Origin: an uncultured Spirochaetota bacterium
GTDB taxonomy: Bacteria; Spirochaetota; UBA4802; UBA5550
Length of the DNA stretch: 64,000 nt
Direction: 5' to 3'
Assembly: GCA_937872225.1 (NCBI GenBank)
Contig: CALMRZ010000047.1
Coordinates: 1 to 64,000 of the forward strand
The position numbers and the translations under genes were made by a program. The notes under the pieces were generated by a model. The model was not told where the DNA came from, made no database searches, and was given only the letters and a program-made list of their open reading frames with translations. Within the stretch, counting starts at the first letter, position 1; each line of letters starts with the position of its first letter. Below are positions 6,568 to 26,179 of the stretch, piece by piece.

Positions 6568-8682
6568 ATGGCTGAAGCACGGGCGCGGGGAGGAGGGTTC
6601 GCGGCATTGCTCGAGAACACCCGGTGGATGCAGAAGACCGACATCCTGATGGGCATCGGTATCATCGCCGTGGTGACGATGCTCATCATACCGCTGCCGA
6701 CGTTCCTTCTCGACTTTTTCCTGGTCATCAGTATCATGTCGGGGCTGCTGATCCTCATGATCGTCATGTTCATCGGGCGGACCTTCGACTTTTCAATATT
6801 TCCGTCGCTGCTCCTGATCACCACGGTATACCGCCTGGCCCTGAACGTGTCGTCGACGCGTCTCATCCTGCTCCAGGGGGCGGCCTTCGACGGCAAAATC
6901 ATCAGGGCCTTCGGCGAGTTCGTCGTGGGAGGCAACTACGTCGTCGGCTTCATCATCTTCATCATCCTGGTCGCGGTGCAGTTCATCGTCATCACCAAGG
7001 GCGCGACGCGGACGGCCGAGGTCGCCGCCCGGTTCACCCTGGACGCCATGCCCGGCAAGCAGATGAGCATCGATTCCGACCTGTCCAACGGCCTTATCAC
7101 CGAGGACGAGGCGCGGAAGCGGCGCGAGGAGATCCGGAAAGAGGCCGATTTCTACGGTGCCATGGACGGTGCCTCGAAGTTCGTGCAGGGCGACGTCAAG
7201 GTCGCCATCGTCATTACGTTTATCAATATCATCGGCGGCTTCATCATCGGCATGGTGATGCGGAACGAACCCTTTGACGTCGCGCTGAAGACGTACACCC
7301 TGCTGACCATCGGCGAGGGCCTGGTGGCCCAGATCCCGTCGCTCCTGATCACCACGGCAACCGGTATCATCGTCACCCGGGCCGTGTCCAACGAGAACAT
7401 GGGCCAGGACTTGGCCGACCAGCTCGGGTCGCAGCCGCGGGCGCTCCTTATCACCGCGGCCACCCTGGGCGTCGCCATCGTGATCCCGGGCTTCCCGAAG
7501 CTCGCGCTCCTGATCCTCTCCGTCGGCCTCGGCGCCCTGGGGTATGTCCTTCTGCAGTCCCAGACCGAGGAGAAGGAAAAGGTCGAGCGCAAGGAGAAAG
7601 AGGCGGCGCTGAAGGAGCACCGGCCCGAGGAAGTCACCCAGCTCGTGCAGGTGGACCCCCTTGAAGTTGAGATCGGCTACAACCTGATACCGCTGGTTGA
7701 CCCGGAGCAGGGCGGCACGCTTCTCGAACGGATCACCAATATACGGCGGCGGAGCGCCCTTGACATGGGCCTCATCGTGCCGCCCATCCGCATTAGGGAC
7801 AACATGGAGCTTGAGCCCGAGGTCTATTCCATCCTGATCAAGGGCGTCGAGGTCGGCCGCGGCAGCCTGCAGGTCGACAAGCTCATGGCCATGGATTCGG
7901 GAGAGGTCGCGGAGAAGATCGAGGGACAGGAGTTCACCGAGCCGGTCTTCGGACTCAAGGCCATATGGATCAAGACGGACGTCCGCGACGTCGCGGAGAG
8001 CAGGGGCTACACCGTCGTCGACTGCCCGACCATCATCGCCACGCACCTCACGGAGATCATCAAGCGCCACGCGGACGAAATCCTGGGGCGGCAGGAGGTA
8101 CAGAAGCTCATCGACACCGTGAAGGAGGATTACCCGGCGGTGGTTCGGGAGCTGGTGGAGGACCACAAGATGTCCCTGGGCGAGATACAGAAGGTGCTCC
8201 AGGCGCTGCTCCGCGAACGCGTTTCGATACGGAACATCGTCACCATCCTGGAAACGCTTTCGAGCTACGTGAGTTACTCCAAGGACCCGAGCTTCCTCAC
8301 CGAGTACGTGCGGATCGCCCTGTCGCGGCAGATAACGAAAGACTACGTGGACAAGACGAACACGCTGTCGGTCATCACGGTCGACCCGGAAATAGAAACG
8401 ATCATACGGAATTCAATACACGAGGACCCGATCGAGGGGCCGGTTCTGGCCATGGACCCGACCACGCACCAGACCGTCGTGTCAGCGCTGCTTGACGCGT
8501 ATCGTCGCTCCAAGAGCATGGGACACGCGCCGGTGTACCTGGTCTCGCCGCAGATCCGGCGGGTGACCTTTACGCTCCTCGAGCGGGAGATGCCGGCGCC
8601 GGTGGTGCTTTCGTACAGCGAGATTTCGAGCGCCGTCAAGGTAGAAGTTGTGGTTTCCGCGCTGTTATCGAGTGCCGCGTAG
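6568..8682 (+). CDS. flhA: Flagellar export apparatus protein FlhA
   Basis: At 704 residues this is a full-length FlhA, the membrane protein that forms the cytoplasmic ring of the export gate and docks substrates and chaperones. About eight transmembrane helices fill residues 1-330. The conserved loop includes ATRTAEVAARFTLDAMPGKQMSIDSDL. The soluble C-terminal domain follows. GAGGTGG lies before the ATG. The last codons are embedded in a 22-bp hairpin with the stop codon in its loop. Confidence 0.95.
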   Translation: MAEARARGGGFAALLENTRWMQKTDILMGIGIIAVVTMLIIPLPTFLLDFFLVISIMSGLLILMIVMFIGRTFDFSIFPSLLLITTVYRLALNVSSTRLILLQGAAFDGKIIRAFGEFVVGGNYVVGFIIFIILVAVQFIVITKGATRTAEVAARFTLDAMPGKQMSIDSDLSNGLITEDEARKRREEIRKEADFYGAMDGASKFVQGDVKVAIVITFINIIGGFIIGMVMRNEPFDVALKTYTLLTIGEGLVAQIPSLLITTATGIIVTRAVSNENMGQDLADQLGSQPRALLITAATLGVAIVIPGFPKLALLILSVGLGALGYVLLQSQTEEKEKVERKEKEAALKEHRPEEVTQLVQVDPLEVEIGYNLIPLVDPEQGGTLLERITNIRRRSALDMGLIVPPIRIRDNMELEPEVYSILIKGVEVGRGSLQVDKLMAMDSGEVAEKIEGQEFTEPVFGLKAIWIKTDVRDVAESRGYTVVDCPTIIATHLTEIIKRHADEILGRQEVQKLIDTVKEDYPAVVRELVEDHKMSLGEIQKVLQALLRERVSIRNIVTILETLSSYVSYSKDPSFLTEYVRIALSRQITKDYVDKTNTLSVITVDPEIETIIRNSIHEDPIEGPVLAMDPTTHQTVVSALLDAYRRSKSMGHAPVYLVSPQIRRVTFTLLEREMPAPVVLSYSEISSAVKVEVVVSALLSSAA

Positions 8683-11812: not shown

Positions 11813-12613
11813 ATGAATAATAAAAAATATAACGAGCTGGATGCCATCGGTGAAGACAAGCTCTGGGAGAAGTTCATCAAGAAAAACGACCAGGACATAC
11901 GCGATTATTTCGTCGTCAAGTACGCGCCCCTGGTCAAGTATGTCGCCGGCAAGATATCCATGGGCATGCCGTCGAACATAGAGTTCGACGACCTGGTCTC
12001 CTACGGCATCTTCGGCCTCCTCGACGCCATCACCAAGTTTGATCCCGCCCGGGGGATCAAGTTCAAGACCTACGCCATGACCAGGATCCGCGGGGCCATC
12101 TTCGACGAGCTCCGCTCGATCGACTGGATCCCGCGCTCCATCCGCCAGAAGGCGAAGCAGGTCGAGCTGGTCATCACCGAGCTGGAGAACAGGCTCGGCC
12201 GGACCGTCGAGGACGAGGAGATCGCGCGGGAGCTGGGGGTTTCCACCGAAGAATTCCAGTCCCTGCTGTCAAAGCTTTCCGGCACGTCGATGCTTTCTCT
12301 GAACGACATCTGGTACCTCGGCGACGACAGCGACGAGCTCTCCATCCTGGAGACGCTGGAGGCTCCGGAGAACATGAACCCTGATATTTTGATTGAAAAG
12401 CAGGAAATCCGCGATTATATTATAGATGCTATTAAGAAGCTCCCGGACAAGGAGAAGAAGGTCATCGTTCTCTACTATTACGAAGATCTCACCCTGAAGG
12501 AAATCGGCGATGTGCTGGAAGTCACGGAGAGCCGGGTTTCCCAGCTCCATACCAAGGCTATCATGAGGCTGAGGGGCCGGCTCGGGCGTATCAAGCAGAA
12601 CATCGTCGGATAA
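11813..12613 (+). CDS. fliA: RNA polymerase sigma-28 factor FliA (WhiG)
   Basis: 266 residues with regions 2 to 4 of a group 3 sigma factor. Region 2 reads [25 protein letters not shown], followed by the FliA signature [11 protein letters not shown]. Region 4 contains [31 protein letters not shown]. It directs transcription of late flagellar and chemotaxis genes and is held by FlgM, whose gene is at 24783. Near-consensus sites for it occur upstream of this operon (792-818) and of flgM (25106-25132). The start at 11813 is the first ATG after the preceding gene. Confidence 0.93.
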
Positions 12614-22555: not shown

Positions 22556-23014
22556 CAGGGCCCCGTATAACCACCCGGATATCGTTCACACTGTCATTTG
22601 TTGCATGTATTTGCTGTTAACGCCACGTCCCCGCCACCTATCCCTACCATGGAAAGGCGAACGCAGGCATGGATCCAATAATTCGGAACCTTCTCCTTTT
22701 GAAAAGAAGAGAGGCGCCAATCAGGATGATTGAGTGCCGGACGAGGACAGGATGTCCTAAACGCCCCCGCGGGGGCGGAGCGCGGGTGATATCCCCGAGG
22801 GCCTTCCAGGGGTTCCGGGCTTTGAAAATCCTCATTAATAAATATTTTATACTTGAAAACTATATTTGATTAATTACAGTAGTACCGGACGGATGGTTGC
22901 CCTCGCGGGGAAAACCCCTGTCGGAGGATCGCAGCTCGGGAGTGCATGGTAACGCGCCCCGCGGCCAGGGGCCGCCGGGCGGTAGTGCAACACTACATTA
23001 AACGGTTGGCACAT
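22556..23014 (+). other. Gap with several GC hairpins before cheW
   Basis: No convincing gene is seen. The stretch holds a palindrome GGACAGGATGTCC (about 22746-22758), an adjacent CGCCCCCGCGGGGGCG hairpin and a short AT-rich segment (about 22830-22880). It also holds GGGGAAAACCCC, and a GTAGTG-CAA-CACTAC hairpin ends about 20 bases before the cheW ATG. The cheW reading frame stays open upstream to 22946, but that extension is low-complexity and basic and I regard it as leader. Confidence 0.5.
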
Positions 23015-23476
23015 ATGGAAAAAAAAGAAAACTTCTTTTCCTCTCTCCAGATCGTCTGTTTCAAGATCGGAAACGAGGAATACGGCATCGATATACTCCA
23101 GGTGCAGGAAATCCTGAAACTCCCGAAAGTCACCAAGCTGCCCAAGTCCAAGCCCTATATCATGGGCGTCATAGATCTCAGGGGCAAGGTCCTCCCGATC
23201 GTTGACCTGAGCAAGCGCTTCAGCATCGATGCCAATAAGCTTACCGAGAACAGCAGGGCCATTGTCGTGACCATCGGCGGGAAGAAGGTGGGGCTGGGCA
23301 TCGATTCCGTAAGCCACGTTATAAAGGTAAATTCAGGCGACATCGAGCCCCCGCCCCCGGTTGTGAGGGGCATTTCCGGGAAGTATATTGTCGGAATCGC
23401 AAAAGTCGATGAAGGGTTTGTCGTCGTCCTTGATATCACCCAGCTTTTTTCCGCCGATGAGCTGGGATCCCTCTAA
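23015..23476 (+). CDS. cheW: Chemotaxis coupling protein CheW
   Basis: CheW links chemoreceptors to the kinase CheA. From the ATG at 23015 the 153-residue product contains the whole domain: QIVCFKIGNEEYGIDILQVQEIL, MGVIDLRGKVLPIVDLSKRF, VGLGIDSVSHVIKV and the ending KVDEGFVVVLDITQLFS. No strong ribosome-binding site precedes it; a small hairpin lies just upstream. No cheA is in the window. It converges with the Fe-ADH-like gene, with only six bases between the stop codons. Confidence 0.93.
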   Translation: MEKKENFFSSLQIVCFKIGNEEYGIDILQVQEILKLPKVTKLPKSKPYIMGVIDLRGKVLPIVDLSKRFSIDANKLTENSRAIVVTIGGKKVGLGIDSVSHVIKVNSGDIEPPPPVVRGISGKYIVGIAKVDEGFVVVLDITQLFSADELGSL

Positions 23477-23482
23477 AACGCG

Positions 23483-24646
23483 TCAATACGCCGCTATCAG
23501 AATCGTCTCGATCTCGTTGGTGTTGACTTCCCGCGGTGTGTTGTCAAGGAAGGGATAGGTGATCGCCAGGTCAGCGATCTCCTTGAACAGTGACTTCGAT
23601 ATGTCGTAGTTCGAGAGCCGCTGCGGAATATCGACGTCCGATTCCAGCTTGCGTATCGCTTCCACCGCCTTGATGGCAGCCTCGATGACCGTTACCTCGC
23701 GCACGTCTTCCCCCATGACCTTCGACATCTGCACGTATTTGCCCGGCGACGACGTCAGGTTGAATTCCATGATGTGGGGGAGGATGATGCTCATGGCGCT
23801 TTCAATGTCAAGGCTGGTCTTCGAGACAAGTGCCAGCGAGATGGCAAGGGTTATGGACAGGAACGATACGGCGAAGGCGATCCCGGTCATGACGGAGGAT
23901 GTCGAAAGGGCCATGCGCGGGGCGCTGTTCTGCGACTCGCGGTACGCCACCGGGATGTTCCGGAAGAGCATGTCGATGGACTTCAGGGCATAGGTGTTTA
24001 TGATGTCGTTGTTCTTCTTGGAAATGACCGATTCCGCGGCCAGGGCCAGGGTGCTGATCCCGCTTTTCAGTATCTTTTCCTCCGGGCAGTGGAGGGTTAT
24101 CAGGGGATCAACGATGGTGGCCTCCGGATAGAGGTCCGGGTTGTGGTATATCCTCTTTGTCAACTCGTGGATCTCCTCGAGGTAGAAGAGTGGGGCGATC
24201 TCGAAGCCGAACATGGGACTCCCCGGGATGGTGATGAATTTCATCGGCTTCCTGTTGAGCTTCGGGTTGGTGAAAAGGTCATGGCAAAAGTAATAATTGG
24301 TGGCCAGGATCGTCAGGGCCTTGGCCGCGTTGATCGAATCGATGCCGCCGAAGCCTATGATCAGGTCGCTGTTGGTTTTCTTGATATAGGCCGCGGCGGT
24401 GTCAATTTCCTCCGTGTTGGGAGGGTTCACGATCTCGTCATAGACGATGCATCCGACATCGGCGTCCTTCAATTGCCTGGATATCATCTCGATGACGCTG
24501 CCGTAGAGTTCCAGGTCGTCGGCGGTGGTGACCAGTATCGCGCGGGAGCCGAACCGGGACGCGAGTTTCCCGATTTCCTTGATGATGTCCTGCCTGATAT
24601 AAATCTGGCTGGGGAGGTGGAAATCTGGTCTAAGTTCTGTTGTCAC
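23483..24646 (-). CDS. Iron-alcohol-dehydrogenase-fold protein lacking the metal site
   Basis: 387 residues with the two-domain layout of group III (iron-containing) alcohol dehydrogenases and landmarks such as ATIVDP (177-181) and IILPHIMEFN (288-296). By eye alignment to FucO-type enzymes all four metal ligands are replaced. The usual D and H of the GxDALxH segment are S198 and L202, and the two later histidines are L267 and I281. The NAD-binding GGGSxxD is GGIDSIN and the PTTAGTGSE loop is also changed. It is intact in frame, so it is probably a conserved pseudoenzyme rather than a pseudogene. Role unknown. Confidence 0.75.
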   Translation of the reverse strand: MTTELRPDFHLPSQIYIRQDIIKEIGKLASRFGSRAILVTTADDLELYGSVIEMISRQLKDADVGCIVYDEIVNPPNTEEIDTAAAYIKKTNSDLIIGFGGIDSINAAKALTILATNYYFCHDLFTNPKLNRKPMKFITIPGSPMFGFEIAPLFYLEEIHELTKRIYHNPDLYPEATIVDPLITLHCPEEKILKSGISTLALAAESVISKKNNDIINTYALKSIDMLFRNIPVAYRESQNSAPRMALSTSSVMTGIAFAVSFLSITLAISLALVSKTSLDIESAMSIILPHIMEFNLTSSPGKYVQMSKVMGEDVREVTVIEAAIKAVEAIRKLESDVDIPQRLSNYDISKSLFKEIADLAITYPFLDNTPREVNTNEIETILIAAY

Positions 24647-24718: not shown

Positions 24719-24752
24719 AAAAAAAGCGGACATATCAATGGTATCTCCGCTT
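24719..24752 (-). terminator. Intrinsic terminator of flgM
   Basis: On the minus strand AAGCGGA (24752-24746) pairs with TCCGCTT (24730-24724), and the T-run extends to 24719. It lies about 30 bases after the flgM stop codon and before the Fe-ADH-like gene, so flgM appears to be a single-gene transcript. Confidence 0.75.
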
Positions 24753-24782: not shown

Positions 24783-25076
24783 CTATTTTCGCACCAGAAA
24801 GTTTGCTATTCTGTCAGCGACCATCTCCAGTATTTCGGGTTTATCAAAATTATATGACCCATTGGCTATCTGTTCCTTGATTTCCCTGACGCGGTCCACC
24901 CTGATATCGGATGCTTCTTTCACGATCTGAGCGAGCCTGGAAACCTCGGCGGCGTTCTTGGCTTCGGATGAAATCTGAACAGAATCCTTTTTCTTGGTCT
25001 CTTTCGCGCCCGCTACAGGATTCGATTTCTTCGGTTCGATGATGTTGTTTATGTTGCCTATTTTATCGATAACCAT
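24783..25076 (-). CDS. flgM: Anti-sigma-28 factor FlgM
   Basis: A 97-residue protein of FlgM type. The N-terminal half is disordered and polar (IEPKKSNPVAGAKETKKKDSV), and the C-terminal sigma-binding part reads VDRVREIKEQIANGSYNFDKPEILEMVADRIANFL. FlgM holds FliA inactive until it is exported through the completed hook-basal body. The gene stands apart from the flagellar operon, between a sigma-28 promoter and an intrinsic terminator, so it is predicted to be controlled by the factor it inhibits. Confidence 0.92.
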   Translation of the reverse strand: MVIDKIGNINNIIEPKKSNPVAGAKETKKKDSVQISSEAKNAAEVSRLAQIVKEASDIRVDRVREIKEQIANGSYNFDKPEILEMVADRIANFLVRK

Positions 25077-25105: not shown

Positions 25106-25132
25106 CTATCGGCCAAATTTGTCAATTCTTTA
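25106..25132 (-). promoter_or_regulatory. Sigma-28 promoter of flgM
   Basis: Read on the minus strand: TAAA (25132-25129), exactly 15 bases, GCCGATAG (25113-25106). Eleven of the twelve defined bases of the FliA consensus TAAA-N15-GCCGATAA match. It is about 30 bases upstream of the flgM start codon, an ideal distance. Confidence 0.8.
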
Positions 25133-25456: not shown

Positions 25457-26179
25457 CTACGTCACATCCGTATCATCATCGGGTTCCCCATTGTAATCCC
25501 TGATGTCGTTATAGACAATCACGGAAAATTCGCCTTTTTCTTTCACGGAATCGATGGCTGAGATGATTTCGTCCACTTTTCCATATATGAATTCTTCATG
25601 CAGTTTGGTCATCTCCCGCCCGATAAGCAGCATCCTTCCCGGAAAAACCTCCCCGATGGCGACGATAAGCTTTTTTATCCGGTACGGCGATTCATACAGG
25701 ACTATGATGCCGTTGAATTCCCTGAACGCGGCCAGCTCTTTTTTCCTCCTGCCTTCCTTTTTACTCAGAAAGCCGCCGAAGATTATGCTTTTGCCGTGAT
25801 ACCCGGAGACAGACACGATGGCGGCCAGGGCGGAAGGACCCGGCACCGGACATACCGGGATCCCCTGTTCCCGGGCCGCGGAGACCAGCCTGCTGCCGGG
25901 GTCGCTGAGGCCCGGCGTGCCGGAATCCGTTGCGTACGCTATGGACTTCCCTCCCTTGATAAGATCTATGACACCTTCGATTTTCTGGGGGGACGAGTGG
26001 GTGTGAAGGGAGAGGGCAGGCACGGAAATTCCATAGTGGCTGAGCAGTTTTCTCGTCTGCCTGGTGTCTTCGCAGTATACCACGTCGACATTTTCACGGA
26101 GAAGCCTGACCGCCCTGAAGGTGATATCTTCCATGTTGCCTATGGGGGTGGCCAGGATATACAGTATACCGGATGACAT
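25457..26179 (-). CDS. rsmI: 16S rRNA C1402 ribose 2'-O-methyltransferase RsmI
   Basis: RsmI methylates the 2'-O of C1402 in the ribosomal decoding centre using S-adenosylmethionine. 240 residues with MSSGILYILATPIGNMEDITFRAVRLL at the start, YCEDTRQTRKLLSHY, the glycine-rich SDPGSRLV motif and PGPSALAAIVSVSGY. This is a SAM-dependent methylase of the tetrapyrrole (SPOUT-unrelated) fold. The start is the first ATG of the conserved region. It is slightly shorter than the E. coli protein but complete. Confidence 0.93.
   Translation of the reverse strand: MSSGILYILATPIGNMEDITFRAVRLLRENVDVVYCEDTRQTRKLLSHYGISVPALSLHTHSSPQKIEGVIDLIKGGKSIAYATDSGTPGLSDPGSRLVSAAREQGIPVCPVPGPSALAAIVSVSGYHGKSIIFGGFLSKKEGRRKKELAAFREFNGIIVLYESPYRIKKLIVAIGEVFPGRMLLIGREMTKLHEEFIYGKVDEIISAIDSVKEKGEFSVIVYNDIRDYNGEPDDDTDVT

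Follow-up and report, generated by a model that had tools for sequence, protein, structure and literature searches.

Iron-dependent alcohol dehydrogenase homologues without metal ligands are encoded next to flgM in many Spirochaetota

The genome of an uncultured Spirochaetota bacterium contains, directly downstream of the gene for the anti-sigma-28 factor FlgM, a gene for a protein with the fold of the iron-dependent alcohol dehydrogenases (Fe-ADHs), in which all four metal ligands have been replaced. The locus raises the question of what this protein, here termed ADHx, is kept for: it could be a decaying enzyme, an enzyme of another kind, or a non-enzymatic protein with a role in motility or regulation. 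The features of the window (the whole stretch of DNA that was analysed, 64,000 nucleotides) on which the argument draws are as follows.

6568..8682, plus strand: flhA, flagellar export gate (PF00771 at G000:C47:6670-8637), in the window's flagellar gene region
11813..12613, plus strand: fliA, sigma-28 factor (TIGR02479 above cut-off at G000:C47:11912-12583), in the same flagellar gene region
22946..23476, plus strand: cheW, convergent neighbour of ADHx
23483..24646, minus strand: ADHx, Fe-ADH-fold protein without metal ligands, 387 aa, GTG start
24719..24752, minus strand: intrinsic-terminator-like hairpin and T run, between flgM and ADHx
24783..25076, minus strand: flgM, anti-sigma-28 factor, 97 aa (PF04316, E 4e-13; TIGR03824 above cut-off), upstream of and codirectional with ADHx
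25106..25132, minus strand: sigma-28-type promoter of flgM, TAAAGAAT-N11-GCCGATAG, close to the sigma-28 consensus
25457..26179, minus strand: rsmI, 16S rRNA 2'-O-methyltransferase (TIGR00096 above cut-off), conserved upstream of flgM

The preliminary description of this DNA had presented the gene as a full-length, intact Fe-ADH-fold frame, and this is borne out. The minus-strand reading frame has 387 codons and zero internal stops, and the N- and C-terminal Fe-ADH domains (PF00465 and PF25137) are recognized with E values of 5.9e-25 and 1.7e-28 (88.2 and 100.1 bits, far above the gathering scores of 31.3 and 27). The assignment of S198, L202, L267 and I281 to the Asp/His/His/His ligand positions, originally made by eye, is reproduced by a phmmer alignment to 3bfj and by a MAFFT alignment to E. 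coli FucO, the ligands of which are D195, H199, H262 and H276 in the MG1655 protein (D196, H200, H263 and H277 in the usual FucO numbering). Two loops are altered as well, as had been claimed: ADHx has GGIDSIN where the NAD loop GGGSxxD is expected, and GSPMFGFE where TTAGTGSE is expected. A search for alternative Asp or His ligands near the metal site revealed no replacement His within these segments, and Asp279, which lies close by, is not conserved across the ADHx family. The AlphaFold2 model (pLDDT 94.3, pTM 0.91) superposes over its full length on the FucO fold (1rrm; Z 52.4, 1.8 Å rmsd over 378 residues), with both an N-terminal nucleotide-binding and a C-terminal helical domain. Support for the ligand assignment comes from the two alignments and this full-length structural match rather than from measured atom positions. 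A divergent family member (L185, from family f24) is likewise predicted to adopt the Fe-ADH fold (pLDDT 92.2), and the best PDB matches of the models at both ends of the ADHx family are Fe-ADHs.

ADHx is not peculiar to this genome. Orthologues with about 47-93% identity were found in 44 of 45 genomes of the same order, and more weakly matching relatives of full length in 12 of the 13 genomes sampled from other Spirochaetota families; a public genome collection contains 31 loci with ADHx, nearly all of them from Spirochaetes. A profile search of 392 Spirochaetota genomes, combined with inspection of flgM neighbourhoods, revealed far more divergent members in Treponema-type and other families. 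An earlier delimitation of the family to scores under about E 1e-87 proved wrong on account of these neighbourhoods. In a phylogenetic tree, 131 of 131 ADHx sequences group in a single clade with support 1.0, separate from FucO and from the canonical Fe-ADH paralogues of the same phylum, which retain the ligands (DHHH, in some cases DQHH).

The loss of the active site residues is a property of the whole family. In a collection of about 140 ADHx sequences (about 40 effective) from across the Spirochaetota, the ligands are retained at His267 in 0%, at His281 in 2%, at His202 in 4% and at Asp198 in 33% of members, and no member has the complete set; every orthologue examined for the same losses thus turned out to lack it. 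The NAD loop is equally degenerate (G102 retained in 1%, S103 in 2%, D106 in 0%). In the 19 canonical Fe-ADHs used for comparison, the same ligand and loop positions are conserved to 100%, except for His202 (82%). Within the window's genus, dN/dS values of 0.04-0.09 indicate purifying selection, although dS is high in most pairs. Since orthologues occur in 44 of the 45 genomes of the order, all of those examined lack the ligand set and dN/dS is this low, the ligand loss is not a matter of chance, and local decay is ruled out. The notion of a decaying pseudogene of a genuine alcohol dehydrogenase, which would account for the disappearance of four out of four ligands, is already contradicted by the phylum-wide full-length frames, the dN/dS values and the conservation of the C-terminal half, and deserves practically no credence. 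As the ligand loss is common to a monophyletic, phylum-wide family under strong purifying selection, ADHx must be retained for some purpose, which agrees with its preliminary description as a pseudoenzyme.

It is a separate question whether this purpose is catalytic. ADHx is probably catalytically dead, judging from its residues, with which some residual activity would still be compatible. One may envisage an enzyme that performs some other chemistry without the Asp-His-His-His metal, and whose gene lies close to flgM as a legacy of an old gene order, not because of a role in motility. There is a precedent in the maleylacetate reductase PcpE, a member of the Fe-ADH superfamily whose activity depends on His172, Lys238 and the like, all of them basic (PMC5741723), and ADHx does retain G100, P141, D180 and mostly K/R109. 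However, unlike in a conserved active site, there are no common replacement residues: the quartet at the ligand positions varies by family, from SLLI to EYAQ, DVTK and AAYF, and the Gly, Ser and Asp of the NAD loop are gone throughout. An enzyme of this kind is therefore unlikely. The nearly invariant, family-specific residues of ADHx include Arg332, Pro341, Arg343 and Leu344.

Two further observations concern the ligand positions. An acidic residue at position 198 is often paired with Lys, Arg or Gln at position 281 (DVTK, EFQK, DNAK), frequently so outside the window's order; within the order, both positions are hydrophobic or small. Perhaps a salt bridge or hydrogen bond between 198 and 281 takes the place of the metal in the former proteins. 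Other Fe-ADH paralogues are altered too. The genome carries a tandem pair (L007, G000:C49:52918-53538, and L004, G000:C49:54647-55477), of which one combines the quartet IHHA with a degenerate loop at the NAD site, GNGPEVD, and the other has DHHH; similarly spaced pairs are present in many genomes of the order. An Fe-ADH-like region in an 810-codon frame (L006, G000:C45:23394-24044) has the quartet HLHH and the loop GHGYTLD.

The genomic context points to flagella. The preliminary description had placed the gene between cheW and flgM, which is correct, flgM being codirectional with ADHx and cheW convergent, and had raised the question whether orthologues follow cheW/flgM. This applies to flgM only. 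The codirectional arrangement rsmI-flgM-ADHx recurs across the window's order and in most other Spirochaetota families, and by a tally over neighbourhood listings flgM lies directly upstream of ADHx in about 41 of the 49 families with ADHx. In contrast, cheW adjoins ADHx only in genomes of the window's order, which rules it out as a functional neighbour. Thus flgM is an ancient neighbour of ADHx, and the link to cheW is local. ADHx is detached from flgM in families f15, f20, f30, f31, f32, f34, f35 and f42, and in one genus of f24; f15 is the Brachyspira-type family, with the Serpulina VSP family in 5 of 5 sampled genomes. In several families of the window's order (L055-L061, L064-L067), about 1.9 kb separate ADHx from cheW, apparently because of an extra gene. 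A possibly conserved gene with a start like KLASLEPRTRNRK is found downstream of ADHx at L204, L206, L207, L235 and L238, and a gene with such a start directly follows flgM at L209, in a genome (G205) where ADHx was not found.

Promoter sequences provide a second line of evidence. The mapped promoter of T. denticola flaB2 has a CCGATAA -10 element and a TTAA -35 element (PMC9481697). With a sigma-28 weight matrix built on 72 flgM sites, and the shuffled 95% level as the score threshold, sites were detected in 95 of 103 flgM upstream regions (a number that includes training sequences) and in 28 of 30 flgM regions outside the training set. The controls gave 4 of 88 for rsmI, 1 of 18 for canonical Fe-ADHs and 28 of 400 for other long ORFs. 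For relocated ADHx genes, 10 of 27 upstream regions scored above threshold (binomial P about 8e-6, with the reservation that relatives are not independent and that the hits fall in few lineages). In the Brachyspira genus, 21 of 21 regions have TTCCGA 38-54 nt before the ADHx start, with an A-rich TTAAA-type element upstream, and two genomes of this genus have the flgM promoter variant GCCGAAAA. No convincing sigma-28 site was seen for the relocated copies in f32.

ADHx genes that have stayed behind flgM have few such sites (11 of 103, little above background), and a promoter of their own within the flgM locus is thus unsupported. Here, a sigma-28-type promoter lies upstream of the transcription unit in the form of the flgM promoter; ADHx would belong to this unit, in spite of the intervening hairpin. 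Hairpins of this terminator-like type occur in 73 of the 82 flgM-ADHx gaps of at least 45 nt (4.5 expected from shuffles), and weaken the idea of a plain flgM-ADHx operon. Beyond the window's order, flgM and ADHx are often no more than 1-30 nt apart, too close for such a hairpin. In view of the hairpin and the scarcity of own promoters, tight co-expression of flgM and ADHx is no more than a possibility. With the hairpin in between, ADHx is presumably made by read-through and at a level below that of FlgM, and the hairpin could control the FlgM:ADHx ratio by attenuation.

The proximity of the two genes might also be a matter of hitch-hiking, with ADHx serving some unrelated housekeeping function and remaining beside flgM through slow rearrangement. 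The example of rsmI, which encodes an rRNA methylase without an obvious flagellar role and yet stays beside flgM, shows that neighbours of this sort exist. Relocated ADHx genes, however, are enriched for sigma-28-like promoters, and rsmI and the canonical Fe-ADHs are not; in addition, several separate lineages in which no FlgM was found yielded no ADHx either. Hitch-hiking is therefore improbable.

The distribution of ADHx follows that of FlgM in one direction. Among 56 sampled genomes, it is present in 38 of the 44 with a FlgM match and in 0 of the 12 without one (Fisher P 3e-8, ignoring relatedness); where the best match alone was inspected, a very divergent ADHx could have escaped notice behind a higher-ranking canonical paralogue. 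The genomes without FlgM include those of f37, which keep FlhA and have no sigma-28 match above cut-off, and f47, none of whose genomes has an FlhA match among the matches listed. In the family without FlhA, the best matches in 13 of 13 sampled genomes were canonical Fe-ADHs and not ADHx, which speaks once more against an enzyme of other chemistry. Conversely, ADHx was not found in the FlgM-bearing genomes G154, G205, G230, G262 and G161, or in the small genome G093. With no ADHx found in these six, the protein is not required for FlgM function everywhere, and this suggests that it is dispensable in some FlgM-bearing lineages. Together with the hairpin, the loss in several such lineages argues against ADHx as a simple obligate partner of FlgM.

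The question of a motility-related or regulatory role can thus be answered with some support: the linkage to flgM, the sigma-28-type promoters of flgM and of many relocated ADHx genes, and the absence from the sampled FlgM-less genomes all favour a pseudoenzyme kept for such a purpose. As a ligand-less protein beside flgM is found nearly throughout the phylum, ADHx has probably long been a non-enzymatic part of motility control. We consider it likely, from gene context and residue conservation, that ADHx is a dead Fe-ADH kept as an accessory or regulator of the late, sigma-28-dependent stage of flagellar synthesis. It would have originated from an ancient duplicate of an Fe-ADH in which the metal site and the canonical NAD loop disappeared before the Spirochaetota began to spread or soon afterwards, and would have taken on a non-enzymatic function in the late flagellar programme. 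The gene would be transcribed behind flgM from the sigma-28 promoter, usually past the hairpin and hence probably at a lower level, or, when relocated, often from a sigma-28-like promoter of its own. The protein would reside in the cytoplasm and most likely work by protein-protein contact, as a feedback or assembly accessory at the FliA/FlgM stage, with the conserved stretch around Arg332 and Pro341-x-Arg343-Leu344 as the putative contact surface.

The identity of the partner is more speculative. FlgM, or the FlgM-FliA complex, is a tentative candidate. According to a review (PMC12655853), FliA of T. denticola is reportedly stabilised by FlgM, and flagellin expression reportedly falls when FlgM is lost; this makes a further player at this checkpoint plausible. 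It is conceivable, though doubtful, that ADHx forms an ancestral third part of the sigma-28/FlgM checkpoint of spirochaetes, binding FlgM, FliA or a late export substrate, and tuning how much flagellin is expressed and how many periplasmic flagella are formed.

By analogy with ErcA of Pseudomonas, ADHx might also be a non-catalytic sensor of NAD(H) or another nucleotide that couples the FlgM/FliA stage to the redox state. ErcA is the best NCBIfam model for the window ADHx, and 48 of 48 scanned ADHx sequences match it significantly; the title of Hempel et al. 2013, as cited in PMC12997753, presents ercA, a putative Fe-ADH gene, as having a part in the regulation of ethanol use in Pseudomonas. 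G100 and G101 of the nucleotide binding loop are largely retained in ADHx, but G102, S103 and D106 are lost, and the scores against the ErcA model NF041833 (152.4 bits for the window ADHx, 122.1 for the f24 member L185) are far below the equivalog cut-off of 550 bits. Such a sensor is distinctly unlikely; it and the metal-independent enzyme remain the main rivals of the accessory or regulator of the sigma-28 stage.

Proteins of the ADHx type can be expected to be annotated as iron-containing alcohol dehydrogenases, a label that hides a phylum-wide flagellar component and puts false dehydrogenases into metabolic models. If the motility role is true, ADHx offers a direct experimental handle on the unusual behaviour of FlgM in spirochaetes, and exemplifies how an enzyme fold can persist, from close to the base of a phylum, after its active site has gone. 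In the open-access papers covered by the search, we found neither the ADHx family nor a comparable third protein at the FlgM-FliA checkpoint described; the primary papers on T. denticola FlgM and on ErcA lay outside the search and may hold an earlier notice of the neighbouring gene.

Among known proteins, the canonical Fe-ADHs (the lactaldehyde reductase FucO, 1rrm; 1,3-propanediol oxidoreductase, 3bfj; B. methanolicus methanol dehydrogenase, 8zwd) share with ADHx the complete two-domain fold and the length, at 19-23% identity and Z of about 52. Unlike them, ADHx has no metal ligands, a broken NAD loop and a sigma-28/flgM context. The maleylacetate reductases (3hl0, 3w5s, 3jzd; PcpE) resemble ADHx in that they belong to the Fe-ADH superfamily and have an altered active site, and are structurally more remote (Z 43-44). 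They are enzymes with a basic cluster and the motif LHHKLCHTLGG (PMC5741723), whereas ADHx lacks such a cluster and in the window reads SFLSITLAISLALVSK in this segment. ErcA is similar in that an Fe-ADH scaffold has been named regulatory, but belongs to another phylum and context, and the likeness is one of scaffold. With the FlgM-FliA (sigma-28) checkpoint, including that of T. denticola FlgM (TDE0201), ADHx has in common the location of its gene beside flgM and probable control of the sigma-28 type.
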